Below, piece by piece: positions 5,691 through 55,194 of a stretch of DNA of 64,000 bases. The stretch spans positions 96,150,935-96,214,934 of the forward strand of contig OX421962.1 of the NCBI GenBank assembly GCA_949128115.1, written 5' to 3'. Position numbers and translations under genes: made by a program. Position 1 is the first letter of the stretch. Every line of letters begins with the position of its first letter. The stretch is from Anaspis maculata. Lineage: Eukaryota; Arthropoda; Insecta; Coleoptera; Scraptiidae. Below the pieces are notes generated by a model. The model saw nothing but the letters and a program-made list of their open reading frames with translations. It did not search any database and was not told the origin of the DNA.

Positions 5691-8600
5691 TCAGGGTGTT
5701 GTAGGCTTCACTCCTAATTCTTGAGTGATCCTCTGATGTGCAGTTCTGGGTAACGCTTTCGTGTTGATATCCGAGATATTACTTTCGGAACCAACGTGCT
5801 TCAGCGCGATTATTCCACCATCGATTTTTTCGCGCAGGAAGTGGTGTTTTATATCGATGTGTTTCGTGCGGGAACGGTATCCGCCGTTGTTTCCCAAGTG
5901 TATTGCTCCTTTGTTGTCGCTGTAGATGGTTGTTGGATGGTTGATAACGTCTTCTGGTAGGATGTCGGTTATCAAGTTTCTCAACCATACAGCTTCTTGG
6001 ACTGCTGCTGACAAGGACATATACTCGGCTTCTGTTGTCGATATTGCAATGGTCGGTTGTTTCTTACAGTTCCATGCGATCAAGTTGCCGAATAACTTGA
6101 AGAGGTACCCTGTCGTCGAGCGCCTATCTTCAGAATCGCTGGCCCAGTCTGCATCGCAGAATCCTTCGAGTTCGTTTCCTTTATCACCGAATTCCAGTCG
6201 ATGATCAACGGTGCCTTTCATGTAGCGTAGTACTCGTTTCACGGCTGTCCAATGTGGACGACCCGGATTATTGTTGAATCTGCTTAGTAGACCCACGGCA
6301 AAGGCTAAATCTGGTCGTGTCAGTTGACTGGCGTAAATTATTGATCCAACAACTTCTTGGTAAGGAATTCGTTGCATTTCGATTTTTTCTTCTTGACTGA
6401 TTGGTGCCATATCTTTGGTCAACTTCTGGTTGCAATCAACTGGTGTTGAGCAAGGATTACAGTCGTTCATATTGTAGCGTGCCAAAACATCAAGAATATA
6501 TTTGGATTGGTCGATCCATATTTTCCTTGTTTTTCTGTCTCGGGTGATGGTCATTCCGAGACAATATTTAGCTTCGCCCAAATCTTTCATCGTGAAATTT
6601 GATTCCAGATTTCTCTTCATTTTCTTCGTTTTTTCGTGATTGTCGCTAAAGATCAAAAGATCATCCACGTAAACTGCTACTATCAAACTTCTTGGATTCT
6701 TCTCATCAAAGTAGATGCATTGGTCGGAGTTTGATTGTTTGAGGCCGAATTTCTTGAGCACCTTACTTAGTTTCATATTCCAAGCTCTACTTCCTTGTTT
6801 CAATCCGTAAATCGCTTTTTGCAGTTTGCATACTTTCGTTTCTTGACCTTCAACTTCAAATCCTTTAGGCTGTGTCATATATATCTCTTCTTCAATGTCG
6901 CCGTGCAGGAAGGCCGTTGTTACATCCATGTGAGTGATGTCTAAATCGAATTTGGCGGCCATTGCTAGCAACATTCGAAGGGATGTATGTCGAATCACAG
7001 GTGCGTATGTTTCGTTATAATCTATTCCATGTTTTTGTGAGCAACCCCTGATTACTAAACGAGCCTTGTGTTTATGACTGTTACCATCTGGGTTTTTCTT
7101 GAGTTTGAATACCCATTTACAGTTCAAAACTTTACGATTTTTTGGCTGATCAGTCAATATCCACGTTTCGTTGCTCATCAGAGAACCGTATTCGGCTACC
7201 ATAGCTTCTTTCCATTTTGTTGCGTTTTCACTGTTCTGTGCTTCTTCGAATGTTGATGGTTCTTCCTCGGATATTTTCGTATTGTACGTTACATAATCGT
7301 TCCATTTTTTTGGTTTGCGGAGTCGCGATGATCGTCTTGCTTTGTCTTTATTTGCATTTGTGTCTTCGTTTGAATTTTTTACGTCTTCGATGTCTTTGAT
7401 CACGTTTTCTAATTCGCTGGTGTTGTCTTCTCCGCTGGTATTTTCTTCTTCGGTGATATTATCATCTTCCGTGATGTTTTCTTCGATGACGACATCTTCT
7501 TCGCTCAAAGGTATAAACGTGTCTTCCTTTTTCGATTCTTCTTTGTTTTTCAGTTCGTTGAATTCCTTTTCCAGGAAAATAACGTCGCGTTTCACGATTA
7601 CTTGGCGTGTTCTTCTGTTGAATAGTCGATAACCTTTGGTACCTTCTGAGTAGCCAACGAAAATACACTCTTCTGACTTTGAGTCCCATTTTTTGCGTTT
7701 TTCTTTCGGTATGTGGGCCATGGCTTTACATCCAAAGATCTTCAAATGTGAAACGTTTGGTTTTCTTCCAGTCCAGGCTTCTTCCGGTGTCGTATTTTCC
7801 AATGACTTTGTTGGGGAAATGTTGATTAAAAACACAGCAGTATTTGCGGCTTCCGCCCAAAATCTGGTGTCCAACCCTGCCTCGAACATCATGCAGCGTC
7901 CTTTCTCAACGATCGTACGGTTATATCTTTCGGCGACTGCATTTTGTTCCGGTGTGTAGACAACTGTTGTCTGATGCTGAATACCGGACTTCTTCAGAAA
8001 ATTCTTGAATGCTTCGTTTACGTATTCACGTCCATTGTCCGTTCGTAGAATTTTGATTTTTTTGTTCGTTTGATTTTCGACAAAATTCTTGAAATCTTTG
8101 AACCGCTGAAGTACTTCGTCTTTGGTATTCAAAAAATATATGAATACTTTTCTCGTGAAATCGTCGATAAAAGTTAAGAAATACCGCGATCCTCCAAATG
8201 ACTTTTCTTGCATAGGGCCGCAGAGATCTGAATGTATCAGTTGTAACGGTTGCGTCGTTTGATGTTTGCTTGTTTGAAACGGTGTACGGTGTTGCTTGCC
8301 TTGTATGCAAGGGATGCAAGTTGATTTTCGTTTCGAATTCAACCCCATTCCGTCGACAAGTCTATCCATTTTCGTTAGGATTTCATCGCTCGGATGTCCC
8401 AATCTTCGATGCCAAATTTCGTGGTTTTCTTTCGTAGTCGTGAAATTCGCTTGATTTTTAGCCCGATCAAGTTTGTACATGCCGTCGATTTCGCTTGCAG
8501 TAGCAACTAAATTATCGTGATGATCGTAAATTGCGCATTTCTTATCGTTGAAAATGACCGTATGTCCACGTTTGGTTATTTTGCTAACAGACAATAAATT

Positions 8601-9596
8601 CGTGGACAATTCCGGTACGTAAAGAACGTCTTTGATTTCAATCGTTTCAGATTTTTCGTTATTTCCGATCTCGAATTTAATGTCACCAATTGATTCAATT
8701 TTCAATTTCTGATTATCAGCTACGGTGCAAGTTCCGTTCGGTTTTTCTTTTTGATCCGAAATTAAACTTCCGTCGTTTGTGAAATGTGCTGTAGCTCCTG
8801 AATCTATATACCAATCATCTTGATCGACATTGTTTACAGAAAAAACTGTATAAAAAGTTCGATGAGAGTTTCTGTCACTTTGCGTATTATTTTTTGAAGA
8901 ATTTTCACGCTCTCGTTTCAAGCGCTCCTTTCTTTTGAAGCAATTTCTACCGTAGTGACCAGGTTTTGAACATTCATAGCAAATTGGAGCTTTCTTATCA
9001 TTTCCGCGATTTGATGCATGCTTATTCAGGAGTACTGACTCACTCTTGTGATCCTTGTCGCTCATCTTGACGTCTTGCAGTAGCTTCGTTTTGATTGCAT
9101 CGGCCGTGATTTTTATTCCACTCGATTCGATGCCCATTATCATCGGTTTATATTCTTCTGGAAGTCCTGCTAGCAGCAAGGTGCCAATCCAGTCGTCTTT
9201 TACTTCTAGTCCGATGTTCGTTAATTTGTGAGCCGTTGTGATGATCTCATTCACATATTCATCGACGGAGTCGCAATTCTCCAAGTGAGTGGTTATCAAT
9301 TTTCGTAAAAGACCCACCTTCCGAGTCAAGCCGGAGTCATCAAATGCCTTCTCGAGGTTATCCCATGCTTCTTTGGCGGTTGTGGTCGTTTGCACGTGGA
9401 CGTAATTCACGGATTCTAAAGAAAGGATGATTTTCGCTCTTGCTCTTGTTATCTTCTTGGCGTCGGTTTCCGTTCCTAAAACACAATTCCAAAGGTCTTC
9501 GTGCTGAAGATATGTTTCCATGGCGAATTTCCATGTTGAGAAGTTTTCTCGTCCTTTCAATTTTTCGAGTCCCGGCAGCGTCGATTGTGCAGCCAT
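5691..9596 (-). CDS. copia Gag-Pol polyprotein, intact, 1301 aa
   Basis: A single ORF encodes every enzyme needed for copia-type retrotransposition. In order: Gag with a UBN2-like N-terminal region; zinc knuckle CYECSKPGHYGRNC (206-219); aspartic protease DSG (265-267); GAG-pre-integrase region with HRRLGHPS and CIPC (about 392-430); integrase catalytic triad D457, D520, E556; reverse transcriptase with YVDD (976-979); RNase H with D1148, E1189 and D1227. The order protease-integrase-RT-RNase H identifies the copia rather than the gypsy group. Length and motif completeness are normal, with no internal stop. The ATG lies about 90 bp inside the 5' LTR, the usual position, and the stop falls only about 5 bases before the polypurine tract. 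A Glu/Asn-rich stretch at about 690-750 is low-complexity linker. Gag and Pol are probably balanced by splicing or processing, but nothing in the sequence shows this. Confidence 0.96.
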   Translation of the reverse strand: MAAQSTLPGLEKLKGRENFSTWKFAMETYLQHEDLWNCVLGTETDAKKITRARAKIILSLESVNYVHVQTTTTAKEAWDNLEKAFDDSGLTRKVGLLRKLITTHLENCDSVDEYVNEIITTAHKLTNIGLEVKDDWIGTLLLAGLPEEYKPMIMGIESSGIKITADAIKTKLLQDVKMSDKDHKSESVLLNKHASNRGNDKKAPICYECSKPGHYGRNCFKRKERLKRERENSSKNNTQSDRNSHRTFYTVFSVNNVDQDDWYIDSGATAHFTNDGSLISDQKEKPNGTCTVADNQKLKIESIGDIKFEIGNNEKSETIEIKDVLYVPELSTNLLSVSKITKRGHTVIFNDKKCAIYDHHDNLVATASEIDGMYKLDRAKNQANFTTTKENHEIWHRRLGHPSDEILTKMDRLVDGMGLNSKRKSTCIPCIQGKQHRTPFQTSKHQTTQPLQLIHSDLCGPMQEKSFGGSRYFLTFIDDFTRKVFIYFLNTKDEVLQRFKDFKNFVENQTNKKIKILRTDNGREYVNEAFKNFLKKSGIQHQTTVVYTPEQNAVAERYNRTIVEKGRCMMFEAGLDTRFWAEAANTAVFLINISPTKSLENTTPEEAWTGRKPNVSHLKIFGCKAMAHIPKEKRKKWDSKSEECIFVGYSEGTKGYRLFNRRTRQVIVKRDVIFLEKEFNELKNKEESKKEDTFIPLSEEDVVIEENITEDDNITEEENTSGEDNTSELENVIKDIEDVKNSNEDTNANKDKARRSSRLRKPKKWNDYVTYNTKISEEEPSTFEEAQNSENATKWKEAMVAEYGSLMSNETWILTDQPKNRKVLNCKWVFKLKKNPDGNSHKHKARLVIRGCSQKHGIDYNETYAPVIRHTSLRMLLAMAAKFDLDITHMDVTTAFLHGDIEEEIYMTQPKGFEVEGQETKVCKLQKAIYGLKQGSRAWNMKLSKVLKKFGLKQSNSDQCIYFDEKNPRSLIVAVYVDDLLIFSDNHEKTKKMKRNLESNFTMKDLGEAKYCLGMTITRDRKTRKIWIDQSKYILDVLARYNMNDCNPCSTPVDCNQKLTKDMAPISQEEKIEMQRIPYQEVVGSIIYASQLTRPDLAFAVGLLSRFNNNPGRPHWTAVKRVLRYMKGTVDHRLEFGDKGNELEGFCDADWASDSEDRRSTTGYLFKLFGNLIAWNCKKQPTIAISTTEAEYMSLSAAVQEAVWLRNLITDILPEDVINHPTTIYSDNKGAIHLGNNGGYRSRTKHIDIKHHFLREKIDGGIIALKHVGSESNISDINTKALPRTAHQRITQELGVKPTTP

Positions 9597-11754: not shown

Positions 11755-12039
11755 ACTAATGTAATTAATATAAATCAAGAAATCTCGCCAACGGAGTAGA
11801 TTGCCGAAAGATGTATCTAAACAACCATGAAGACAAAATCAGAATTGGTTGAGAGAATCCAAACTTATACCATTTTAAAAAAGGGTGAAATTTTTGATAC
11901 CGACATTCCAAATGTTGAGCAGTTCACTTGAACGTTAAACTCTTGAAATATCATGACATATTCCTCGTTGAGAATTGATACTAGACTCCTCTTCGTCGTT
12001 TTCCTTCGTTTTCAGAAGAAAAGAGATGGGAAATACTGA

Positions 12040-12354
12040 ATGGGAGACGAGGAGGGAGAATATACATATGCCACAGGGAGGGTGGCAACAACAATAGATT
12101 ACGCAATGGAGAACGAAAGAGCACTAGAAAAAATACTAACGTTCAAGGTTGGAGGAAGAGTGGAGTCAGACCACCTACCATTGGAAATAGAAATCGAACG
12201 GGAGGAAGAAATAGAGAGAGTCGAAGAAGAGAGAAATCGGAAAGTAATAGAAAAGTGCTGCTGGAAGGAGGAAGAAATTTTACAATACAGAAGCAGAACA
12301 AACAGTATATTGAGTGGAAGGCGGAAACAGTACAAGAAAAAACGGGAGAACTGA
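12040..12354 (+). pseudogene. LINE endonuclease C-terminal fragment
   Basis: The translation has GEYTYATGR, then TTIDYAM, then GGRVESDHLPLEIEI. These match the last blocks of the exonuclease-endonuclease-phosphatase domain of APE-type LINEs, where the SDHLPL histidine is catalytic. The N-terminal catalytic parts are missing, so the element was 5'-truncated near 12000. The remaining frame becomes a Glu/Arg/Lys-rich linker that leads to the RT. Confidence 0.75.
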
Positions 12355-12695
12355 GCAAGATCATGAACAAGGCAGTAGAACGGAGAACCATAGTGATACG
12401 GAAGAGAGAGAACGAGAGGTGGAACGTGGAGTGTACAAAAAGGAAAATAGAAGCACGAGAACGACTGAGAGAGTGGAGAAAAAATACAGAGACGAGAGAA
12501 GAATACACCGAAGCAAGGAAGAAATACCAAGACTACTACTGTAAAAGGAGAAAATTGAAGAGGAGGGAAGAAGAAGAATTGAAAATAAGAAAAAGAAAAC
12601 ACGAACACGAAATATAGGCATACATCAATAGAGAAAGAAAAAATAGAGAGAAAGTCCGCAACAAAATAAAAATGGAGCAGTGAAAGGATCACTTC

Positions 12696-13987
12696 ATGGA
12701 ACTACTTGGAGGAACGGATGAAAGAGACACAGCAGATATAACAGAAGACAAGAAAACGAGACATCCGAGTTTAGAGAAAGAAGAAAGATTGAAACAGCTT
12801 CAGAAGCTCAAGAAAAGAAAAACTCCAGGTAAAGACGGAATCGAGAATGAAGCGTGGATATATGGCTCAGAAGAAATACTAGAAAAACGGAACGAAATAC
12901 TGAATGAAATAAGGCAAGAAAGAGGGTTTCCTGAACAATGGAGGGAAAGCATTATCTGCTCCATCTACAAGAAGGGAGAGGAGGAGGAGGTGACCAACTA
13001 CAGGGGAATAACGCTGCTGAACACCGCTTACAAGGTATATGCAATGGTGATAGAAGAAAGACTGACAAAAGAGATAGAGGAAAAGAATATACTACCGGAT
13101 GAACAAGCCGGCTTTCGAGAAGGAAGAGGCACCGTGGACAACATATACATCCTCCACCATCTCATTGAAAAAGAAATAAACAAAAAAGCAGGACGGGTGT
13201 ATGCGCTGTTCGTAGACTTGAAGGCAGCCTTTGATAGAATAGAAAGAGAGGAATTATTGAAGAATTTGAAAGAAAGAGGGATAAACGAGAAACTAGTTAA
13301 CAAAATAGAAAATATATACAAAGAGACAAGGAACAGAGTGAGAGTTGATGGGAAAGAGAGTGATTGTTTTTATCCAAAAAAAGTTGTGAGACAGGGATGC
13401 CCCATGGGTCCCATGGGCCCCACATGATTTGCAGCATACTTGGGAGATATAGACGAAATGTTCCGGAAGGCGCAGGCGGGATGACTTGTGGTGGAAAACA
13501 AAAAAGTATGGACACTGACGTATACGGATGACTTGGTGGTGCTAGCTAAAGATGAAAGAAATATTAGAGAAATGATTAAAAACTTGGAAAGATATTTGTG
13601 GAGGAAAAAGTTGGAACTGAATGTGAAGAAAACAAAACTAATGATTTTTGGGAAGGTAAGAAGGAGGAAACCGGAAATGGAATGGAAATGGCAAGAAAAA
13701 TCCAAGATCAAAGAAGTGGACGAGTTTAGATACCTCGAATATGTGTTAAACAGAGCTGACACCTCAGGAAGCCATGTTAAAGAAATGATAAAGAATAAAA
13801 TTCTGGGGAGCACGTGGTGAATAGGAGAAAGAAAATTCAGACATGACATAGGAAGAAGAATGATGATGTTTGACAGTCTAGTGGGCAGCATATTGATGTA
13901 CGGAGCTGAAATATGGGGATGGAAAGAGTACGAAGAGATGGAAAGAGTGTAAGAGAGATATCTAAAATGGCTACTAGGATTAGACAA
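12696..13987 (+). pseudogene. LINE reverse transcriptase, broken
   Basis: The first frame (12696-13427) carries RT blocks: KRKTPGKDGIENEAW, NYRGITLLNTAYKVYA, LPDEQAGFREGRGTVDNI and ALFVDLKAAFDRIERE, which includes the motif A aspartate. At motif B the expected GCPMSP-type sequence is distorted: 13396-13427 has a short duplication of CCCATGGG followed by a stop. RT then continues in 13488-13820 with the catalytic TYTDDLVVLA (motif C) and LELNVKKTKLMIF (motif D). Further stops lie at about 13818 and 13950. The motifs suit jockey/CR1-like LINEs; I give no clade. Confidence 0.87.
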
Positions 13988-14004
13988 GGAAACACCGGGA
14001 TATA

Positions 14005-15377: not shown

Positions 15378-15515
15378 GGACAATTCGTCCCGCGGACAAT
15401 TCGTAGCGGACAATTCGTCGCGGACAATTCGTCCCGCGGACAATTCGTCCCGCGGACAGTTCGTCCCGCGGACAATTCGTCTCACGGACAATTCGTCCCG
15501 CGGACAATTCGTCGC
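15378..15515. repeat. Left terminal array, nine 14-16 bp units
   Basis: Units of GGACAATTCGTCCCGC with shorter variants (GTAGC, GTCGC) in positions 2, 3 and 9. Each unit holds the near-palindrome GGACAATTCGTCC. Confidence 0.92.
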
Positions 15516-18655: not shown

Positions 18656-18793
18656 GCGACGAATTGTCCGTGAGACGAATTGTCCGCGGGACGAATTGTC
18701 CGCGAGACGAATTGTCCGCGGGACGAATTGTCCGCGGGACGAATTGTCCGCGACGAATTGTCCGCTACGAATGGTCCGCGGGACGAATTGTCC
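18656..18793. repeat. Right terminal array, nine 14-16 bp units, inverted
   Basis: Units of GCGGGACGAATTGTCC. Read from the outer end, the unit lengths (16, 14, 14, 16, 16, 16, 16, 16, 14) mirror those of the left array, and the odd GCTACG unit faces the GTAGC unit. Confidence 0.92.
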
Positions 18794-18801
18794 GGTCACG
18801 A

Positions 18802-42585: not shown

Positions 42586-42822
42586 TGTTACGACCCCGTC
42601 ATGAATAAGATTAGTTTTGCTTACTTAGCACCTGCTGTTTATATATACGACTTCATGCAGTTAGCACGCATCACAATTTTCTGTATCATGACCGAGTGCA
42701 CGTCGCACGCATAAATTGTCGATCCGTTATTACGTTCTAAACTTGTACGAATTAAATTATTTTCACAGTTTAATAAAATTGATATTTTTTAAAAAGGCTT
42801 TTTCAAAAACAAACACGTAAAA
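42586..42822 (+). repeat. Errantivirus 5' LTR
   Basis: Starts TGTTACGACCCCGTC and ends CACGTAAAA. It contains a TATA box, TATATATA at 42640-42647, and an AATAAA further downstream, the promoter and polyadenylation parts of an LTR. Confidence 0.95.
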
Positions 42823-42823
42823 A

Positions 42824-42841
42824 TGGCGCAGTCGGTAGGAT
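42824..42841 (+). other. Primer-binding site, tRNA-Ser type
   Basis: TGGCGCAGTCGGTAGGAT follows the LTR by one base. The same site type is known for the 17.6/297 group, which is primed by tRNA-Ser. Confidence 0.85.
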
Positions 42842-43008
42842 GTTAGGCCCATTTGGCACAAATAATTTTTGAAAATTTTATACGTAAAAAAGTGTTAAGT
42901 GGTGTGCTCCAGCACTTCAGCCTAGCAGCCTACATCTGTAATCAAACCAAGGAAGCTCCAGCGGAACCTGTCCTGAAGTTCTCCGACGGCAACGATTTCC
43001 ATCAAGTA

Positions 43009-43014
43009 GTAAGT
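43009..43014 (+). promoter_or_regulatory. Possible leader splice donor for env mRNA
   Basis: GTAAGT lies in the leader 121 bases before the gag ATG. With the acceptor at 52739 it would give a subgenomic env message, as errantiviruses use. Only the motif and position support this. Confidence 0.45.
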
Positions 43015-43129
43015 CTACTTATTTTTATAATCATCATTGTTTGTTTCGGGGTATTCCCCTTTCCATTTTATATCCTTTTTATCTTGTTTAGTGTATTGAT
43101 ATTATATTATTTACCTGTAATAATTCGAA

Positions 43130-44095
43130 ATGGCTGAAGGTGATAACGAAATTCAACTCTCTTTGAGAGATCTTAGAGATTTAATTCCCTCATTCGATGG
43201 CGAACAAGCCTTACTGAATGATTTTATAGAAGCATGTAATTTTGCAACGGAAAACATCGAAGAAGGACAAGAAAATGTCCTTGTTTTCCTAATTAAATCC
43301 AAACTAACTGGAAAAGCTAAAACTTTCATATCCTCGAGGAATCTAACAACCTGGGAAGCAATAAGGCCCCTTTTAATAGGCCACTTTGGCGATTGTAGGG
43401 ATACCGAAGCTCTCGTCAGAGACCTCACAAATTCTTTCCAAAAAACGACTGAAACAGCGCGAAGCTTCGTAACAAAAATAGAAAACTTATTAACAAAATT
43501 AAGGTCGAGTGTTCGACTCGACGACGAAATTGACCCATTACATAAAAACACTTTAATCGAGTCACACGAAAAGATCGGACTGAAAACTTTATTAGCCGGA
43601 TTGAATGACCCCTTAGGTCAATTAATAAGAGCACAAAAACCATTATCCATTAGCGAAGCCGCCCAACTAATACTTGAGGAAGAAAATATTGCATACCTAA
43701 GATCAACGCGCAGCAGTCAAAACAATACGAAAACATTTAAAAGCTTTCCACGACAAAATTACCATAACCAACATGTTTCACCTCAAGCAGGACCGAGCAA
43801 TTATGCTCATAATCCAAATCCACGACCAGACGCGAAATTCTGCAATTACTGCAAAAAACCTGGTCATTTAATAGTAAATTGCTTCAGAAGAATAAATAAT
43901 TCGAGTCACAATAATGCAAATCCTCAAAATAGAAATTTTTCAGGTCAAAGTAATTTTCAAAATCGACCAAACAATAATTTCTCAAACAATCCCGCTCCTC
44001 GCGTAAATTATTTAAAAAACGAAGATGCGGAGCTGGATTCCCCGGACGTCCAGTCCCCTGCAACCAAGACGCACGTGAGCGAGTCCGAAATGTAA
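43130..44095 (+). CDS. Errantivirus Gag, 321 aa, intact
   Basis: This is the structural capsid protein that assembles the particle and packages RNA. The first 200 residues have the helical retrotransposon-gag pattern (WEAIRPLLIGHFGD; LLAGLNDPLGQLI). A zinc knuckle CNYCKKPGHLIVNC follows (C238, C241, H246, C251) and then an Asn-rich basic tail. The length is normal for the family. The ATG at 43130 begins the longest frame after the leader. The gag frame ends at 44095, while the pol frame, one base back, is open from before 44017. A slippery site lies in the overlap. Confidence 0.93.
   Translation: MAEGDNEIQLSLRDLRDLIPSFDGEQALLNDFIEACNFATENIEEGQENVLVFLIKSKLTGKAKTFISSRNLTTWEAIRPLLIGHFGDCRDTEALVRDLTNSFQKTTETARSFVTKIENLLTKLRSSVRLDDEIDPLHKNTLIESHEKIGLKTLLAGLNDPLGQLIRAQKPLSISEAAQLILEEENIAYLRSTRSSQNNTKTFKSFPRQNYHNQHVSPQAGPSNYAHNPNPRPDAKFCNYCKKPGHLIVNCFRRINNSSHNNANPQNRNFSGQSNFQNRPNNNFSNNPAPRVNYLKNEDAELDSPDVQSPATKTHVSESEM
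44011..44020 (+). promoter_or_regulatory. Probable -1 frameshift site between gag and pol
   Basis: TTTAAAAAAC in the gag frame reads as T TTA AAA and A AAA AAC, two overlapping canonical slippery heptamers. A -1 slip moves ribosomes into the pol frame, which is open from here to the protease. I did not model a downstream pseudoknot. Confidence 0.75.
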
Positions 44096-44685
44096 TTTTA
44101 AATGCAAAGTCCAATGATAGCCAACACAAAATGTTTTATATTCTAGACACAAAAAATAATTTTAAACTTCTTTTAGACAGTGGTGCCTCTATCAGTTTGA
44201 TTCACCCAAATATTATTTCACCCGAAAGTAAAATCCAAAGCAAAGATATTCATATAACCGGGATTGAAAATATTCCCGTACTTTCCAGTCATGTTTACGA
44301 ATACCAAGTCGGTAAATTCAATTCGCACACAATGCATGTTGCACCTATCGACTTTGGATTATTCGACGGAATTTTGGGTATGGATTTTATTTTAAATTTC
44401 AATTGTGTTATCGATTTTCCTAAAAGAAAACTATTTTGTTCAATTCAAGACTATCCTGAAATTCAATTATTTTCCTATGCAAGGAACGGTGATACTTCTC
44501 TCACTACTTTAAATCATTGTGAATCCATTAATAAAAATAATACAAGAAACCCGGTACATAAACCGCGTATAATCAACGAAGAAAATCGACAATTTCATAC
44601 TCCCTCTGTGGATCTTAGAATTGCTAAAAAAGCAATAGAACCAAAGTGTTCAATTCAAGTCGATACTAATTCATTTAAAAAATCA

Positions 44686-45093
44686 AATACTTCCTTCGGG
44701 AACCATTCGAGCTCCGCCGTGAGTCTCTCTAATAATAATAATCCTATAAATGGATCTTCTAATAAAAATACTTCTCTCAAAGTAGAGAATCAAAGAATAA
44801 ATATTTCCGAGGCAAATAATAGCCTTAGGGTCGATTCAGATAAGAATCATTTAAATACTTCCTTCGGGAATTCTTCGAGCTCCGCCGTGAGTCTCTCTAA
44901 TAATAATAATCCTATAAATGGATCTTCTAATAAAAATACTTCTCTCAAAGTAGAGAATCAAAGAATAAATATTTCCGAGGCAAATAATAGCCTTAGGGTC
45001 GATTCAGATAAGAATCATTTAAATACTTCCTTCGGGAATTCTTCGAGCTCCGCCGTGAGTCTCTCTAATAATAATAATCCAATAAATGGATTT
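44686..45093 (+). repeat. In-frame 168-bp tandem repeat, about 2.4 copies
   Basis: Units of 56 codons start at 44686, 44854 and 45022. Each begins NTSFGN then SSSAVSLSNNNNPING. Units 1 and 2 differ mainly at a His/Ser. The repeats are Ser/Asn-rich and likely form a disordered linker between the protease and the macrodomain. Confidence 0.95.
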
Positions 45094-45102
45094 TCTAATC
45101 AA

Positions 45103-45546
45103 TTTTCAATCGAATTCATAAGAGGTGACATTTTAGATGCACCCAATAACATTCCAATTGGGCACGCAGTGTCTCAAGATTTTAAAATGGGCCAAGGCTT
45201 AGCAAGAAAAATTGCAATAAAATATCCACACAATACCGACGAGCTGCTAGCTCAGCAAAAGATAGTAGGACAAGTTGCTTATTCCTTTTTCTCGAGCGTA
45301 AATGAAACGCGAGAAATTTTTCACCTTATCACGAAGGAACGCTTTCAAGATAAGCCCACGTACAATTCTATCAACACAGCATTAATGAACTTGCGGGTTA
45401 TATGCGAAGAAAATCAAATCGCTGAATTAGCACTGCCAAAGCTCGGATGCGGTCTTGATAACTTAAACTGGAAGCACGTTCTTTCTATGATAAAAGAAAT
45501 TTTCAATAATATCCGGATTAAAATTTATATCTATGAGTTCGAAGAA
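45103..45546 (+). other. Macrodomain of TARG1/OARD1 type within Pol
   Basis: Residues 325-472 of Pol. Order of motifs: GDILDAP (332-338), GHAVSQDFKMGQGLARK (ADP-ribose pocket), LLAQQKIVGQVAY, FHLITKERFQDKPTYNSI, LPKLGCGLDNLNW and a C-terminal strand IKIYIYEF. Macrodomains bind ADP-ribose. The TARG1/OARD1 class removes it from glutamate/aspartate through a catalytic Lys in the ITK motif and an Asp in the GCGLD motif (Lys84 and Asp125 in human TARG1). Both are present here as K402 and D443. There is no stop or frameshift, so the domain has been kept coding. ADP-ribosyl hydrolase activity is inferred. A role against host PARP-type defence or in DNA repair at integration is a hypothesis. Confidence 0.88.
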
Positions 45547-48289
45547 CCAAATACTACTTTGAAGAAAATTTTTCATATATCGCCTAGAACGATCGAGGTA
45601 GTTCAACTACCAGTAAAAATAAATTCATTTTCAAATAATAATGCTGATTCAACCTTTATATGTCCTGAACTAGAGATCAATGGAGTAAAGATTCCTAATT
45701 CCATCGTAAAGATAAATGATAACCAAATTATTACTACAATGTTGAACTCAAGCAATGAAACCAAGGAAGTTGAACTTCCTGAAATAATTCTTGAACCTTT
45801 CGAAACCTTTAACGTGAATAACTACAACGTCACTACTAATCACTCAAATAATATTGATCGAGAACAAAATATTTTAAACCAATTAAGGCTCGATCATCTT
45901 AATTTAGAAGAAAAAGAGAACATCGAAGACTTGTGTTTAAATTTCAAAGATATTTTTCACCTAGAAGGTGATAAACTATCCTTTACTAATCAGATCAAAC
46001 ATGAAATCAATACAAACGGGGCTAAGCCATCGTTTACCAAAACATATCGGTACCCTCAAATACATAAAGAGGAAGTCAAAAGTCAACTAAATCAGATGCT
46101 TCAGCAAAATATTATTCAACCTTCGGTGAGCCCTTGGAGTAGCCCGGTCTGGGTTGTTCCGAAAAAATTAGATGCTTCTGGAAAACAGAAGTGGAGGGTC
46201 GTGATAGATTTTCGGAAACTTAATGATGTCACTGTTGGTGACAAATATCCTTTGCCAAACATAGAGAACGTTCTAGATCAACTCGGTAAGTCTAAATATT
46301 TCACAACCCTCGACCTTGCTTCCGGTTTCCACCAAATTGAAGTAAACAAAGCAGACATCCCCAAAACCGCCTTTTCAGTTGAAAACGGCCATTTTGAGTT
46401 CTTGCGCATGCCTTTCGGGCTTCGAAACGCCCCAAGTACGTTCCAGCGTGTAATGGACAATATAATGGTCGGACTGCAAGGTGAGCTTTGCATGGTATAT
46501 ATGGATGATATAATAATCCACTCTGAAACATTAGAAACTCATATACAAAACGTTTCAAAAGTATTCGAACGTTTGCGGAAGTACAACTTCAAGATACAGC
46601 CCGACAAATGTGAATTCTTAAGACGAGAAGTTGCGTACTTAGGACACATTGTGACAGACGAAGGTCTCAAACCAAATCCCGAGAAAATCAAAGCTGTCCT
46701 AAATTTTCCACAACCAAGAAGTGTAAAAGACATCCAGTCATTTTTAGGCCTTACGGGGTACTACAGACGTTTTATAAAGAACTATTCAAAGGTCACTAAA
46801 CCTTTAACCAAACTCTTGAAAAAGAACGAGTCATTCGAGTTCAATGAAACATGCCAGTCGGCATTCAGTCAATTAAAACATTTACTGACTTCAACTCCTA
46901 TTTTACAATATCCAAATTTTGAAAAGGAGTTTATCCTCACCACGGACGCTAGTGATTTCGCAATCGGCTCAGTGCTCTCGCAAGGCGAAATAGGAAAAGA
47001 TCTTCCAATCGCATACGCATCTAGAACATTGAATCCAGCTGAAACCAGATATTCGACAATTGAAAAAGAATTATTGTCAATCGTTTGGAGTTGTAAACAC
47101 TTCAGACCTTATCTTTTCGGTCGTAGTTTCAAAATTGTCACTGACCATAAGCCCCTTTTGTGGCTCTTTTCCATCAAAGACCCAGGTTCACGCCTTTCAA
47201 GATGGCGGCTGAAATTAGAAGAATATACATATGAAATCATTCACAAAGCTGGGAAATTAAATAAAAATGCTGATGCACTTTCGCGTATCAGAATAAATCC
47301 AATCACAGCAAATCCATCTCCACCTCCAGATGAAGAAGACGAGTCAATAATCAATCGTAACGAGACACCAGACTTAATTGATTTCAACGCAAATCCAGAC
47401 TACGAATTCGAAATCGAATATGACAGATTTATTAACGAACAACCTTCAATAAATTTTGATTTAATAAAAGAGACAAACGACTATGTGACACTTGCTTACC
47501 ACAAAAATATAATAGCATTCATTCCCAATAATGAAAATGAGGATACACCCCATATTGCAACCTATGTCGCAGATACATGTACTACAGAAAGAAATTTGAA
47601 TCTAACTGAAACATTAACTATCAAAAACAGCTTAAAGGTCACTAATCGAAAATACTATTTCATCAAATTGCCCGTAGACAATTTATCAAGACTTTCTCAA
47701 AAAGATTTATTCAGACTTCTCTACGAGATCAAAGAAAATTTAGAACCTAAAGAATATCATTTGAACAAGGTCAATCACCTACCATTGAAAAGAATTTTGA
47801 GTCATTTATTCAACGCTGATACTTTCAAATTCCATATTTGCCATGATATAATCAAATTGCAAAAAGACCTAACGCCTGAAGAAAAGAACGAAATAATGTC
47901 GAAATGGCATTCCTCAAAGAATAATTTACATAAAGGTATCAATGAAACATTTCGAAGAATACGTGAACAACATTTATGGCCCAATATGAAAACAGATATA
48001 GAAGAATTTGTAAAACGGTGTCAGACTTGTAATCAATCGAAGATTAATAGGCAAAACACAGATTTTCCCCTCGTAATTACAAAAACACCAGAACGACCAT
48101 TTCAACACATAAACATGGACACACTAGACGTACATCCCCAGTTACATCTTCTGACAATTGTTGATAACTTTTCAAAATATGCACAGGCTTATCCAATTCC
48201 TAACAAACAAGCAAGAAGCGTTACTGATAAATTATTATTGTACTTCCAACACTACCCTGTACCACAACGAATTCATGTAGTAGTCCGGA

Positions 48290-50478
48290 TGCTAGTTGAA
48301 AGTACCTTGCATTTTTTGATGAGAAGATGCCACTTGGTGGAAATGTTCTTTGCATTGTACTCTTCCGATTCAGAAAGGTAGCCATCAGCGCCATCCAAGC
48401 CCGCGGCGTATACAGGGTGATACAGAAAAAAAAAGTTGAAGAATTATATTTAATTACCCGAAGCATGTGGAGACGTGTACTTCACCACATATAATAACTG
48501 TTTTATGCTTATGAAGTCACAGCAAACTGTTCTTGATTACCTTGAACCGTCTTTGAAATGTAGGGGAAAACCTGAAAAAAAAACAAGAACACTCTTTTTT
48601 CCATAAATAAGTAATTCTTCGAGATATTGACACAATACTTGGTATTTCTACGAAAAGTAATATTAGAAATGATATGAGCTGGGTAGCCAATTTCTAAGCC
48701 AACTATTTCCAGAAATACGATTGTCAACTTTTTTTTTCTCTTGAGCACCATCTTGAATCTGCCCTGTAAGGCATCGTTGAAAAAGTGATTGGTTATCATA
48801 ATAATGGTAATATGTGATCATTGCATCGTAAAAACAACCTCCTCATCATAACTTAGTGACCTCTTCGGCGGGAAAGAATTGTCATTTACGTGTTTTTTGG
48901 CTCTTCAAAGCTTTAGTGCCCATGATAGCATTTGCAACATCTGGAATGGTGAAATATGTTACGCATTATGAACCTTGATGTACTTTGAGGTAGCCTACCA
49001 AGTTTCGCCATCGTCAATTGGAAGGTTTGGTCTTAAAAGCTGTTTGAACAAAATTTGTTTAATTTTTTTATGGAAAATACAAAATTTTGGATCTATCACC
49101 CTTATTTGATCCCTCGTTGCGGGAAGCCTGAAACCGAAAGTCTCCGAAATTTTTATGATAATGGTTCAGTGGGAAGTGTTCTTCAATGTTTAGTTGTCAA
49201 AAATTGCATAGTTGCGTTCAGATTCCACACAGAGAGCGACAAAGAAGTTCATGCAGTAAAAAAAGACATAAATTACAGTCGAGAAAAAACAAGTCCAGGG
49301 CTAGACTGAAAGCTGTCTGGAGACCTTGCTTTTTATAACATAAATGTACAATTTGGTACACTGTTAGAGCCTTAAGTTAGTAATATTTCATGCCTTTCAC
49401 CCATGCCTAAGAGTCTCCCAGAAGCTGTGTATTGCGGGAAGCCTATCTGAAAGGGACATTTCCGGGATTTCTCCGTTGCACTGAAAGTTGTGTCTTTTTT
49501 CACTGCATGAACTTCTTTGACGCTCTCTGTCTGGAATCTGAACGCAACTATGCAGATTCCGACAACTACACATTGAAGAGCAGTTCTCAGTGAACCATTA
49601 GCATAAAATTTTTGGAAACTTTCGGTTTCAGGCTTTCCTCAACAAGGGATCAAATAAGGCTGAAAGATCCAATATTCTGCATTTTCCATAAAAAAATTTA
49701 ACAAGTTTTGTTCAAACAGCTTTTGAGAACAAACCTTTCAATTGATGTTTGCAAAACTTTGTAAGCTACCTCAAAGTACATCAAGGTTCATAATGCGTAA
49801 CATATTTTACCATTCCAGATGTTGCAAATGCCATCATGGGCACTAAAGCTTTGAAGAGCCAGAAAATACGTTAATGGCAATTCTTTGCCGCAGAAGAAGT
49901 CACTAAATTATGATGAGGAGGTTGTTTTTACGATGCAATGATCACATATTACCATTATTATGATAACCAATCACTTTTTCAACGATGCCTTACGGGGCAG
50001 ATTCAAGATGGTGCTCAAGAGGAAAAAAAGTTGACAATCGTATTTCTGGAAATAGTTGGCTTAGAAATTGGCTACCCAGCTCATATCATTTCTAATATTA
50101 CTTTTCGTAGAAATACCAAGTATTGTGTCAATATCTCGAAGAATTACTTATTTATGGAAAAAAGAGTGTTCTTGTTTTTTTTTCAGGTTTTCCCCTACAT
50201 TTCAAAGACGGTTCAAGGTAATCAAGAACAGTTTGCTGTGACTTCATAAGCATAAAACAGTTATTATATGTGGTGAAATACACGTCTCCACATGCTTCGG
50301 TTAATTAAATATAATTCTTCAACTTTTTTTTTCTGTATCACCCTGTATACGCCGCGGGCTTGGATGGCGCTGATGGCTACCTTTCTGGATCGGAAAAGTA
50401 CAATGCAAAGAACATTTCCACCAAGTAGCATCTTCTCATCATAAAATGCAAGGTTCATTCCATTTTATGCAACTAGCA
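48290..50478. mobile_element. 2.2-kb foldback inserted in the integrase region
   Basis: TCCGGA flanks both ends (48284-48289 and 50479-50484). The ends TGCTAGTTGAAAGTACCTTG and its near-complement form arms of about 1 kb (48290 to about 49285, about 49495 to 50478). The word TACAGGGTGATACAG occurs inside each arm (48413 and about 50350). Mirror ORFs at 48509-48799 and 49938-50249 are the same sequence read from the two arms and do not look like genes. No transposase. Confidence 0.88.
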
Positions 50479-50486
50479 TCCGGACT

Positions 50487-51556
50487 CAGTGGCGCAGCCA
50501 GGATTTAGCCATGGGGGGGGCTAACGAACGCAAGCGAAGCAAGCTGCGCTAAAGGCGAACCCCTCCCCCCCCCCGGAAAAAGGGCCTTGGTCATCATATT
50601 TTCAAGTATAACTATTGTGGTACCAATGTTACCTACCTTAAATTGAAGTAGGTATTAAATTCAGTATTCCCCATAGGTATTCCCTGAGTTTGCGGGGGAA
50701 ATGACAGTAATAAATGGTAGTAATGACACTTGCAAACTGACAGCCGCGTCGCGCGCACGTAGAAATGTCATACACGATCGTTCGGCACATACAAACGATA
50801 CGGCCGAACGCAGCTGTTCACGAAATACGGTTTTTCGTGCTTTTGTTAGATCTATCGATAGTGGTAATCTGAACGATAATCGTTCGCTAACGAGTCGTTG
50901 GTTGGCAGTCTGAATGATAATCGTTCGCTAACGAGTCGTTAGTGAACGAGAAGTTACAAAATAAGCCTGATAAGTGGGTGAGTATACTGGCTTAAGGACG
51001 AAGTTATATTTGTGAAATAAGCGTTGTGGAATCAATAATCTCTGTTGGTTCATTCCTTGACAGAATCTTACCATTTAGGTCTCTCTCGAAAGCTACAAGG
51101 ATGCAGTTTGGTTTGAACCCATTGGCATTTTCAAAATCTGAAATCATTTTTTTTCCTTTTTTGATGATTGATTGATTTTTGGATTTTGAAAATGCCAATG
51201 GGCTCAAGCCAAAGTGCATCCTTGTAGCTTTCGGTAGAAACCTAAATAATGAGATTCTGTCAAGAAATAAACCCACCAGGATTGATTCCGCAACGCTTAT
51301 CTTACCAATTCAACTCCGTCCTTGAACCGGAAGAGCTTCTCTCTCCGCACCAAATGAAAAAAAAAACGCGCAATCCAATCGCAGTGCAACTCTTACACAG
51401 AGAGATCAATGATCCATTTTCTAAATGATAAAGAAGGTAACAGTCGAACACAATAAATTTTTTATTTTGTTCAAAATTTTTCATTGCTTCGGTGAAAAAG
51501 CGAGACTGTCTGGGGGGGGCTATAGCCCCCTAGCCCCCCCCTTGGCTGCGCCACTG
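50487..51556. mobile_element. Non-autonomous hAT-type element, 1,070 bp
   Basis: Ends CAGTGGCGCAGCCAGG and TTGGCTGCGCCACTG, with G/C runs next to them. The 8-bp target duplication TCCGGACT (50479-50486 and 51557-51564) overlaps the foldback's duplication. There is no transposase ORF. The interior has a 31-bp tandem duplication around GATAATCGTTCGCTAACGAG (about 50867 and 50914) and a hairpin at 51017. Confidence 0.9.
51017..51300. repeat. Hairpin MITE nested in the hAT-type element
   Basis: ATAAGCGTTGTGGAATCAAT pairs with its near-complement ending at 51300. Arms of about 125 bp share TTTTGAAAATGCCAATGGG and TACAAGGATGCA in inverted order. Confidence 0.75.
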
Positions 51557-52227
51557 TCCGGACTATAGATGCCGGAAGCGAATTTATGAACCAATCGTTC
51601 AAAAATCTAATCGAATTGTACGACATTAGACTAACTGTCAGTCCCACTGATCATCCCCAATCTAATGGGCAAGTGGAACGTTTTCACGCCACATTGATGG
51701 ATTCTATTAGAAGTTTCCACATCGATTATCCTCATAAACCTGTAGTTGACGCACTACCTTTCGCTATAAAAACATATAACCTTAGCAAGTCAGCTTCAAC
51801 CAAATTCACCCCTCAGGAAATTGTTTTTGGACATATTGATCCATCTAGAGATAATATTTTTACCAATGAAGCAGAACTTCAAGATGATTACCAGAGACTC
51901 ATGAGAAATTACGCACAATATGTTAACAAAAAAGTCATTTCCAATATCGATAGTTCCAAACAAAAATCAAAGGAACGTTTTGACAAACATGTAAAAGAAA
52001 ATAGACCTCAGTACAAACTTGGTCAATCAGTGTTTTAAAGAAAACCATCAAGACAATCCAAATTGTTTCCCACATATCTTGGTCCCTACAAAATAACCAG
52101 ACTCTTACCTCCGAATTGCGTAGAGCTACTAACTTCCAATAATAAATATATGACTGTCAACTTTGACCGGATAAAACCGTCAAATATAGAATTAGACGAA
52201 GACCAAGACCCAAATACCTCAGACTAG
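51557..52227 (+). pseudogene. Errantivirus Pol, 3' part: rest of integrase, with in-frame stop
   Basis: After the hAT-type element the frame reads DAGSEFMNQSFKNLI and then SPTDHPQSNGQVERFHATLM, the second catalytic Asp and the Glu region of integrase, followed by the C-terminal domain. TAA at 52036-52038 falls inside the coding region: the same frame goes on with YLGPYKITRLL (a GPY/F-type motif) to a second stop at 52225-52227. The insertions and this stop make Pol non-functional. Confidence 0.88.
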
Positions 52228-52739
52228 GTATTTAACAAATAATCCCTGCTGTTTTGGGACCTTTAAGAATAAAGCAGACGTAAATCCAAATGCGTGTCGT
52301 AAAAGGCGACTAAATAGGACTTAATACAAGAATTTTTGAAAAACTCTGACGACGTTTGGCAGACGTCAACCATTATGTTCAAAGAACACCTTTTTCCCCA
52401 TAATTATGATTATATACACATAATTCTATTCCCTGTAAAACTGCTGGGTTTATTAACCGCCAAACCCCCGCCTCACGGAAAACATTTTAATTTTTTATTG
52501 CGGTCAAATTCAGATTTGCCCTGATATACAATTTTGGAAGTCACCAAATTGTCCCTGTCATCTGAATAACATCTTAGGATTCAGACTGTAAAATCCTTCG
52601 GCTTTACCGAAAATTCAATTATAGTACGAATTTAGTAGTGTTAGCGATAATTCCTAGGTTGGTTTATCGTATCAGCTAATTTCATAATTAAGAACTTTAT
52701 TGTTTTATCTAGTCATCTGTGAACAAATAATTGTTACAG

Positions 52740-52746
52740 ATCCATC
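52740..52746 (+). promoter_or_regulatory. Possible env splice acceptor junction
   Basis: AATAATTGTTACAG ends at 52739, only seven bases before the env ATG, so an exon beginning at 52740 would start almost at the env ORF. Confidence 0.45.
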
Positions 52747-54699
52747 ATGGACAAGACTCCATCTAAAATCTTTATTTTCCTATTCCTCATTAATTTTTCT
52801 TATTCCAATATCCAAATCAAAGACCTAAACAATACCATAGGACTATTTTACGAAAAAGAGAGAGAAATAAAAATAACTTCAGATATTTGGAAACTAGTAG
52901 TGTATAAAGACATTAATCACTTACAAGAAACGTACGAACATAATTTGCAAATTTTAAATACCCTAACAACTGTACTTTTGAAAGATGAACACGATGAAAA
53001 TGTAAGATTTCGAACTTTTTCCCTTACGATAAAACCCCATCTTGATATTCTAAAAGCGATTTCAAATAAAATCGATAATATGTTAACAGAAATTAAATTC
53101 GAAACAATCCGAGTAAGACGAGGACTTGCAAACGGTGTTGGAACCGTATGGAAATTTATAACAGGAAATCTAGATGCCTCCGACGGAGAATATTTTAGCA
53201 AATGTATAGACAAATTAGAAAGAGACGATTCAGAAATTCAAAACTTGATCAAAGACCAAATTAAAGTCACAACAAGTACCATTCGAAATTTTAACGAAAC
53301 GATTAGAAAATTACAAATTGACGAACAAACATTCAACGAAGATATGAAAGTAATAGAAAACGAAATTAAAACCCTTTTTGGGAGTCAAAAATATTTTGAG
53401 CATCAATTAAAATTGATGAATAATTGTGAACAACTTCTAGAATCATTCACATTAATTTCAGAAGAACTTACTGATATAGTCAATAGTTTAACCTTTGCGA
53501 AATTAAAAATAATCCACCCATCGATAATTAAACCTAGAAATTTACTCAGCGAATTGATAGACATCAATAGACATCTAACGCGAAATAACTTACCATTCAA
53601 ACCCACTTTGGAAAATCTTCCCCAGTTATTAAATCTTTTTAAACTTCAAGCATTTCAGACAAAAAACAGGTTAATATTTGTAATAATAATACCTTTAATA
53701 AATCAGGATACCTTCGACCTTTACCATCTCTACTCTGTACCAACCAAAGATCCTTCTACAAACCTTTTCCATACTATCATCCCCGAATCAAAGATGATAG
53801 CATTATCAAAAGATAAGAGAACTTACATCAAGATCCATGACCTCGACACTTGCCAAGAAATGGACGACAGAACCGCCATGTGTCAAGATTTAATTCCTCT
53901 TGACTCGACCCAAGGACCATGTGAGGTCATCCTCATCACGACACTCCAAAACTCCGACAAATGCAAGCCACTAATTATGAATGTAATCAACCATAACATT
54001 CAGTACATCGGCAAGAACCAATGGTTACTAGTCCTACCATCAAAGTTGGCAATTACCTACACCTGCCCTAATCAAGGTACAACCACCAAACTTCTGGAGG
54101 GCAACAAACTCATCACGTTACAAAAACGGTGTAATGCATATACTGGCATTTATCAACTATATGCTAAAGAAGAACAAACTTCCAACTATACAGAAGAGAA
54201 CTTCATCCCTCAAATTCCATTCGAATGCTGCGAGGAACAAACATCAAAAGAAGAGTTCCATTTAAAACCACTTAAAATCAACCAGTTCAACTTGGACGAC
54301 TTAAATGTCGCCGCTCACAAACTTGGCGAGCTTGAAGAAGAACTCAAAACGTTAAATCAAGAGCCCTTCGCAACAAAGTACCTCAGCGCATCCACCATCT
54401 GGACCCTGACCATCTTTGTTATAATAATTGTAACAGTCATCTGCTGTAAATGTGGCTGTTGCCGCCACTTCATTGGCTACATGAAAAGTTCACCTTCTAA
54501 CAACCCCAGACCTGACGACAGGGGTTGCTGTGCAAAAATCTATAACTTTTGCAATATCAATCCAAAACCACACCGTAGAACATCTATTCACCAGTGGAAT
54601 ATCGAGTTGCAACCGACACTCGAACTACAAACTGAAGAGACGCCTCTGGAAGCAGCAGCCGTCTCAAGAAATACGAGGCAGCAAAGAAAAGCCTTGTGA
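52747..54699 (+). CDS. Errantivirus Env, 650 aa, baculovirus F-like fusion glycoprotein, intact
   Basis: This is the membrane fusion protein that lets errantiviruses leave and enter cells. Visible parts: signal peptide (residues 1-20, FIFLFLINFSYS); furin-type site RVRR (122-125) followed by a Gly-rich hydrophobic fusion peptide (GLANGVGTVWKFITGNLD), the hallmark of insect errantivirus Env and baculovirus F proteins; helical heptad-like stretch (about 150-270); paired cysteines in the ectodomain; transmembrane helix (about 551-566); Cys-rich cytoplasmic face (CCKCGCC) and a 78-residue tail. No stop or frameshift. It follows pol after about 500 bases of spacer and is probably expressed from a spliced message. 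Unlike pol in this copy, env is complete. Confidence 0.93.
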   Translation: MDKTPSKIFIFLFLINFSYSNIQIKDLNNTIGLFYEKEREIKITSDIWKLVVYKDINHLQETYEHNLQILNTLTTVLLKDEHDENVRFRTFSLTIKPHLDILKAISNKIDNMLTEIKFETIRVRRGLANGVGTVWKFITGNLDASDGEYFSKCIDKLERDDSEIQNLIKDQIKVTTSTIRNFNETIRKLQIDEQTFNEDMKVIENEIKTLFGSQKYFEHQLKLMNNCEQLLESFTLISEELTDIVNSLTFAKLKIIHPSIIKPRNLLSELIDINRHLTRNNLPFKPTLENLPQLLNLFKLQAFQTKNRLIFVIIIPLINQDTFDLYHLYSVPTKDPSTNLFHTIIPESKMIALSKDKRTYIKIHDLDTCQEMDDRTAMCQDLIPLDSTQGPCEVILITTLQNSDKCKPLIMNVINHNIQYIGKNQWLLVLPSKLAITYTCPNQGTTTKLLEGNKLITLQKRCNAYTGIYQLYAKEEQTSNYTEENFIPQIPFECCEEQTSKEEFHLKPLKINQFNLDDLNVAAHKLGELEEELKTLNQEPFATKYLSASTIWTLTIFVIIIVTVICCKCGCCRHFIGYMKSSPSNNPRPDDRGCCAKIYNFCNINPKPHRRTSIHQWNIELQPTLELQTEETPLEAAAVSRNTRQQRKAL

Positions 54700-54940
54700 A
54701 CAAACTTTGCAGTGCGCGAAGTGTTTAAAAGCAGAGCTTATACGAAGTGAAAAGTGCTCGTGACCCTAAAAGACACTTTCTTTTAAATTGTAATCTTTTA
54801 ATTCTAAGTCTTTAGTACTTAACGATTTTGTTATTTCAGTTTTTAGCTTACTTACCTTTTATGTCAATAATTTTATATTTTTAGAATTTTAAAAAATTTA
54901 CCTCTATTTTTATTTTCAGTTAATTTTATAAAATTCTATC

Positions 54941-54953
54941 AAAAAGGGGGAGG
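54941..54953 (+). other. Errantivirus polypurine tract
   Basis: AAAAAGGGGGAGG lies directly before the 3' LTR. Confidence 0.9.
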
Positions 54954-55190
54954 TGTTACGACCCCGTCATGAATAAGATTAGTTTTGCTTACTTAGCACC
55001 TGCTGTTTATATATACGACTTCATGCAGTTAGCACGCATCACAATTTTCTGTATCATGACCGAGTGCACGTCGCACGCATAAATTGTCGATCCGTTATTA
55101 CGTTCTAAACTTGTACGAATTAAATTATTTTCACAGTTTAATAAAATTAATATTTTTTAAAAAGGCTTTTTCAAAAACAAACACGTAAAA
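54954..55190 (+). repeat. Errantivirus 3' LTR
   Basis: Same as the 5' LTR but for one base (G to A near 55150). ATGT follows. Confidence 0.95.
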
Positions 55191-55194
55191 ATGT

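Follow-up and report, generated by a model that had tools for sequence, protein, structure and literature searches.

We analysed a 64,000-nt stretch of the Anaspis maculata contig OX421962.1, referred to here as the window, whose positions are used throughout, and found an errantivirus-like element that covers at least positions 42586 to 55193 and carries a TARG1/OARD1-type macrodomain in its Pol. The list of open reading frames (ORFs) gives the order gag, pol, env, and the features of the element, including its long terminal repeats (LTRs) and its reverse transcriptase (RT), are as follows.

42586-42825, forward strand: 240-nt part of the 5' LTR, a direct repeat 100% identical to 54954-55193
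43130-44095, forward strand: gag ORF, 321 amino acids, with a CCHC-like knuckle (Pfam Retrotrans_gag 18.5 bits and zf-CCHC 13.3 bits, both below cut-off)
44131-48381, forward strand: pol ORF, 1416 amino acids, its 3' end inside the insertion (ORF list)
44155-44391, forward strand: protease (gag-asp_proteas 21.4 bits, below the cut-off of 28.2; DSG motif in the ORF)
44685-45099, forward strand: 168-nt tandem repeats in the linker between protease and macrodomain, their number varying in alignments to other copies
45103-45546, forward strand: TARG1/OARD1-type macrodomain, 148 residues (sequence, Pfam and fold matches)
45334-45336, forward strand: codon of Lys 402, corresponding to TARG1 Lys 84 (alignment to mammalian OARD1)
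45457-45459, forward strand: codon of Asp 443, corresponding to TARG1 Asp 125 (same alignment)
46159-46653, forward strand: RT (RVT_1 140 bits)
46915-47226, forward strand: RNase H (RT_RNaseH 136.9 bits)
47875-48276, forward strand: first part of the integrase, zinc and core domains (Integrase_H2C2 58.5 bits; rve 26.2 bits, below the cut-off of 32.6)
48281-51565, no strand assigned: insertion of about 3.3 kb that splits the integrase, with long inverted repeats within 48298-50460 and 51037-51283
51586-52038, forward strand: remainder of the integrase (ORF; in other copies directly after the integrase core)
52747-54699, forward strand: env ORF, 650 amino acids, baculovirus F protein type (Baculo_F 164.9 bits)
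54954-55193, forward strand: 240-nt part of the 3' LTR, direct repeat partner of 42586-42825

Because a Baculo_F-type Env is combined with a Pol of the Ty3/gypsy type, we assign the element to the errantiviruses (Metaviridae): LTRs surround gag, pol and env, and Pol has the order protease, RT, RNase H, integrase, the macrodomain being additional, between protease and RT. This is the context that a preliminary description of the window had given for the domain, and it was borne out. The same description took the macrodomain to be in frame and without stops, and no stop indeed occurs through 45103-45546, but the pol ORF ends in the insertion at 48281-51565, and since this insertion splits pol, the integrase of the window copy is broken despite the identical LTR stretches. 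The insertion is missing from the six loci of the same family (family A below) that align there (L035, L036, L037, L038, L041 and L042). Its inverted-repeat arms measure 438 and 550 nt, and its borders overlap by 3 nt, suggestive of a target duplication of 3 bp.

The 148-residue domain matched human TARG1 (4j5r) over query residues 3-145 with a phmmer E value of 4.3e-27, the next macro class being DarG (5m31) with 1.5e-8, and it scored 25.9 bits with Pfam Macro, above the cut-off of 22. The nearest solved structure, both by sequence and by modelled fold, was again human TARG1 (4j5r and 4j5s, 37-38% identity), with DarG as the second structural class (22-24%); compared with the alphavirus chains, TARG1 was closer both in sequence and, by about 8 Z units, in structure, which argues against a MacroD-type assignment. 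A chance match to macrodomains is ruled out by the sequence and structure matches to TARG1. In Pol, Lys 402 and Asp 443 aligned with the mammalian OARD1 residues Lys 84 and Asp 125 and were invariant in the seven aligned rows; moreover, the pair was kept in 72 of 72 copies from seven families (7 of the 72 copies carry a stop), even though identity between the macrodomain families is just 35-58%. Asp 125, the counterpart of Asp 443, is a catalytic residue of TARG1. A role of Lys 84 in TARG1 is described in a passage of PMC8501950. Sequence, modelled fold and catalytic residues together confirm that the window domain is a TARG1/OARD1-type macrodomain, and they uphold the preliminary description both in its placing of the domain between the protease and the RT and in its naming of the two catalytic positions. 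From the retained residues, the domain is predicted to be a catalytically competent ADP-ribosylhydrolase.

To establish how common the domain is, we searched the 757.8-Mb A. maculata genome for macrodomains, scoring the best 150 of 416, 241, 473 and 468 candidates, so that all counts are lower bounds. With the window domain as query (best of 416 candidates), all 150 scored rows matched; at least 70 belong to family A, the family of the window element, at 85-100% identity (58 at full length, 54 of these 58 without a stop), and the remaining 80 to other families at 38-42% identity. After exclusion of two host-like rows, the merged lists gave at least 229 distinct places, some of which may be host genes or fragments. 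The best listed Pfam Macro match in the genome, at 124 bits, lies at L043 (G000:C1:32501709-32502089) and has three internal stops. That the window macrodomain might stem from an assembly join, a doubt raised in the preliminary description, is ruled out by the family copies, at least 58 of them full length, which are spread over many contigs. The other refuting outcomes named there did not occur either, the macrodomain match being significant and Lys and Asp retained. The other macrodomain-bearing families of the same genome rule out a domain unique to the window element.

The position of the macrodomain in Pol, as determined by tblastn with the window domains and by Pfam, differed between families. 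Family A has the order protease-macro-RT-RNase H-integrase-env and family F protease-macro-RT-RNase H-integrase zinc domain (a single locus, its two ORFs parted by a stop), while the domain follows RNase H in family B (protease-RT-RNase H-macro-integrase-env, with Baculo_F), family E (protease-RT-RNase H-macro-integrase) and family D (RT-RNase H-macro-integrase, the sequence having been read from the RT onward), and stands first in family C (macro-protease-RT-RNase H-integrase). A family C' (frame 1571), 58% identical to C in the macrodomain and 86% in the RT, has the macrodomain upstream of the RT, as judged by coordinates only. Thus, in the families with the order read, there are three macrodomain positions, each within Pol, which rules out one family with one position. 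RT identity to family A was 67% for D, 64% for B, 51% for E, 43% for F and 33% for C.

Selection on the domain was assessed within families at 71 loci, 9 duplicates of the same place having been removed; family F is represented by one locus, and the family D copies were selected by Pfam score, which is a bias. Ratios of nonsynonymous to synonymous changes per site in the macrodomain were 0.20 (A), 0.36 (B), 0.08 (C), 0.41 (D) and 0.17 (E), and in the RT 0.05 (A), 0.05 (B), 0.06 (C) and 0.21 (E), the family D value of 0.70 being unusable, since one of its 16 rows was excluded because of its length, five contained stops and some were frame-shifted. Variants found in at least two copies, which are mostly older than the last insertions, comprised 10 synonymous and 7 nonsynonymous changes in A, 7 and 2 in B, and 4 and 5 in D; when pooled, 14 of 35 were nonsynonymous as against 79% expected (P 6e-7), and purifying selection was also detected in A (P 6e-4) and in B (P 4e-4) singly. 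Between C and C', the proportion of differing sites in the macrodomain was 0.80 for synonymous sites, which are saturated, and 0.27 for nonsynonymous sites; if the two domains share descent, as their 58% identity suggests, these values indicate long-kept constraint within elements.

Presence of the macrodomain was uneven among RT relatives, an element being counted as without macrodomain when none was among the matches listed. With the RT-RNase H region of the window as query (best 114 of 10195 candidates), a macrodomain was listed within 4.5 kb in 33 of 33 family A rows and in 72 of 81 further rows with RT identities of 61-66%. With the RTs of families C and E, 37 of 114 rows each were checked, and a macrodomain was listed in 25 and in 4 of them, respectively. 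This patchiness implies that gains, losses or both took place. Three of the relatives of C (G000:C1:115110792, C2:16050390 and C5:89928851; RT 82% to C) have frames of 1180-1186 amino acids and no listed macrodomain; such frames are about 155 amino acids shorter than that of C (1186 versus 1341) and may form a before-or-after pair for a gain or a loss. Near E, G000:C1:17676109 and 18 more rows (RT 51-52%) have single frames of 1795 to 2526 amino acids in which no macrodomain is listed. Within family A, 7 of the 12 distinct loci with downstream sequence (L002, L003, L004/L038, L007, L008, L036 and L037) have lost RT and RNase H through one and the same in-frame 1317-nt deletion, and where the whole frame was read (L036, L037 and L038), protease, macrodomain and integrase still form one frame. 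The RT is present in four loci (L001, L005/L035, L041 and L042), and L006 departs from the alignment at 45720. The copies lacking the RT are probably a non-autonomous derivative amplified with help from full copies.

We propose, with a probability of roughly 0.6, that the domain is a captured TARG1-type eraser which is borne by the particle and keeps host ADP-ribosylation from stopping reverse transcription or integration. The modelled fold, family, position, kept Lys and Asp, many copies, purifying selection and recurrence in several families, established above, are the parts of this proposal that rest on our analysis. The donor would have been an animal, probably arthropod, OARD1-type gene captured into an errantivirus Pol. 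As the domain was always in Pol where the order was read, it would be made within Gag-Pol in the same amount as RT and integrase and would be packaged in the particle next to these enzymes. There it may strip ADP-ribose from proteins of the particle, reverse-transcribed DNA or host proteins near the integration complex, the benefit being that neither reverse transcription nor integration would be halted by the host modification. Single-stranded cDNA and free ends arise during reverse transcription, and the nicks made at integration activate PARPs. Human TARG1, according to a passage of PMC8501950, clears ADP-ribose off Asp/Glu and, like DarG, off thymidine in DNA. Viral structure matches to the window domain include arthropod viruses, namely Kadipiro virus VP8, thrips flavi-, virga- and negev-like viruses and an isopod iridescent virus, which fits repeated use of macrodomains against arthropod ADP-ribosylation.

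Several observations weigh against this proposal. The family C macrodomain reached 15.1 bits with Pfam Macro, below the cut-off of 22; it is 40% identical to that of family A across 143 residues. The domain is less constrained than the RT in families A and B, as seen from the ratios of 0.20 and 0.36 versus 0.05 and 0.05, and in family D alone constraint was not significant (P 0.11). Family A rows with an RT numbered 33 as against at least 70 with a macrodomain, and in the copies lacking the RT the macrodomain may be a passive passenger. Finally, no macrodomain was listed for 12 of the 37 relatives of C that were checked, nine of which have RT identities of 81-93%, or for 33 of the 37 checked near E (RT 51-55%), some of these rows being fragments; the domain is either dispensable in some lineages or was missed among the matches listed.

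The recurrence in several families raises the question of how many times the domain was acquired. The RT tree had the topology (C,(F,(E,(A,(B,D))))), with a support of 100/99 for A+B+D, while in the macrodomain tree A joined P0107, a free-standing protein of 141 amino acids, with a support of only 66/74, and the branches of A and C were long. We consider several captures more likely than one. Rather less probable is a single old capture in a common ancestor followed by many lineage losses and shifts of position: approximately unbiased (AU) tests do not reject one clade of all element macrodomains (p 0.132), nor A+B+D (p 0.104) or B+D+E (p 0.127), but it has to accommodate three different Pol positions, an A-D path of 3.52 in the macrodomain versus 0.63 in the RT while the B-D path is 1.12 versus 0.47, and a human TARG1 that is nearer to the B, D and E macrodomains (49-51% identity) than family A is (36-40%). 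We put forward only tentatively the wider idea that several insect Ty3/gypsy lineages independently built in a host-derived eraser, at three places, as a counter to an undescribed ADP-ribosylation-based restriction of particle, cDNA or integration complex.

Possible donors and relatives were sought in the host and beyond. A host OARD1-like exon, L163 (G000:C1:19394950-19395550; C1:19395151), contains LITK and MPRIGCGLD and is preceded by a near-identical copy whose frame breaks off; it is ruled out as a near donor, being 27-38% alike to everything compared. Neither the macrodomain region of a Pol piece (0 of 109 candidates at E 0.001) nor the domain by itself (0 of 19 candidates) gave a match in protein searches, and since these searches need shared exact words, they are no evidence of absence elsewhere. 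A profile search yielded 1675 proteins of OARD1-like length, the best 120 of which were listed, its length filter excluding relatives of Pol length. IMG/VR gave 83 relatives, of which 80 were kept; none of the 80 had a match to the element RTs. These 80 contig stretches (L083-L162) encode TARG1-like macrodomains with no element-RT match nearby.

Other functions of the domain were also considered. It is improbable that it acts as a reader that steers the integration complex to DNA breaks or chromatin by binding poly- or mono-ADP-ribose there, with catalysis incidental: the macrodomain adjoins the integrase in B, D and E, but it is distant from it in A, F and C, and we prefer an eraser to a reader because the catalytic Lys and Asp pair is invariant. 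Equally doubtful is a hygienic role in which, with no host attack, the domain would act in the manner of a dUTPase and rid single-stranded cDNA or the ends of nucleic acids of ADP-ribose adducts that are spontaneous or metabolic in origin. Retroviral dUTPases likewise stand at differing places in Pro-Pol. DarG, the next structural class, acts like TARG1 on thymidine-linked ADP-ribose in DNA, according to a passage of PMC8501950, but our analysis gives no sign of such adducts on insect retroelement cDNA. Last, an inert captured domain copied along with the element, for which the few differences in young families, the family D result and the patchy presence could speak, is very improbable, already disfavoured by the purifying selection seen in A and B and in the comparison of C with C', and by the spread of the domain over several lineages and positions.

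Macrodomains show that hosts and RNA viruses contend over ADP-ribosylation; to our knowledge, insects have few PARPs and no interferon. A conserved TARG1-type domain in several retroelement Pols points to an ADP-ribose-sensitive step in reverse transcription or integration, and its recurrence at differing Pol places suggests a common answer to a host defence or a DNA lesion. How insect ADP-ribosylation affects retroelements, and whether the substrate is protein, DNA or RNA, thereby becomes a testable question. If the wider idea of independently acquired erasers against an insect restriction is true, the retroelement macrodomain would be a counter-defence, paralleling in retroviruses what macrodomains are in RNA viruses.

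Elsewhere in the window, tandem arrays of a 16-bp unit, 8.8 copies each, lie at 15378-15513 (GGACAATTCGTCCCGC) and at 18658-18794 (reverse complement). On the reverse strand, 5691-9596 is an open frame of 1301 amino acids which, by eye from the ORF list, appears to be an intact Copia-type gag-pol. The region 12000-14000 shows strong strand asymmetry, with a GC skew of 0.37 and an AT skew of 0.44, over an ORF that by eye resembles a non-LTR reverse transcriptase. The window also holds a chitin-binding ORF, which, like the errantivirus type of the element, points to an insect.

A macrodomain in the Pol of insect LTR elements is likely, not proven, to be new: none was seen among the open-licence literature matches listed, where a sentence on fish endogenous retroviruses was the one lead to any retroelement macrodomain, a scope outside which subscription journals, Repbase and preprints lie, and term searches of two viral macrodomain reviews, PMC9503650 and PMC7729036, yielded no passage on a retroelement macrodomain. 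The closest known system is TARG1/OARD1/C6orf130, which shares the whole-domain fold, the catalytic Lys and Asp and 37-38% identity with the Pol domain; OARD1, however, is a host protein of some 150 amino acids that stands by itself, whereas the Pol version is a domain in a retroelement polyprotein. The DarG antitoxin macrodomain, at 22-24% identity, belongs to a bacterial toxin-antitoxin context. Macrodomains of RNA and DNA viruses, such as alphavirus nsP3, coronavirus nsp3 and the BFVD matches, are virus-borne too, and among the BFVD models the query TM scores were about 0.8-0.9 for Kadipiro and thrips viruses and 0.6-0.7 for iridescent viruses. Retroviral dUTPase is an accessory host-type enzyme found at different places in Pro-Pol and may offer an analogy in its variable placement, with another enzyme and substrate. 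Fish epsilon-like endogenous retroviruses likewise join a reverse-transcribing virus with a macrodomain; as described in a passage of a review (PMC4977317, citing Basta et al. 2009, doi 10.1128/JVI.02546-08), theirs are additional macro-domain ORFs, whereas in the Anaspis elements the domain lies inside a Pol of the Ty3/gypsy type.
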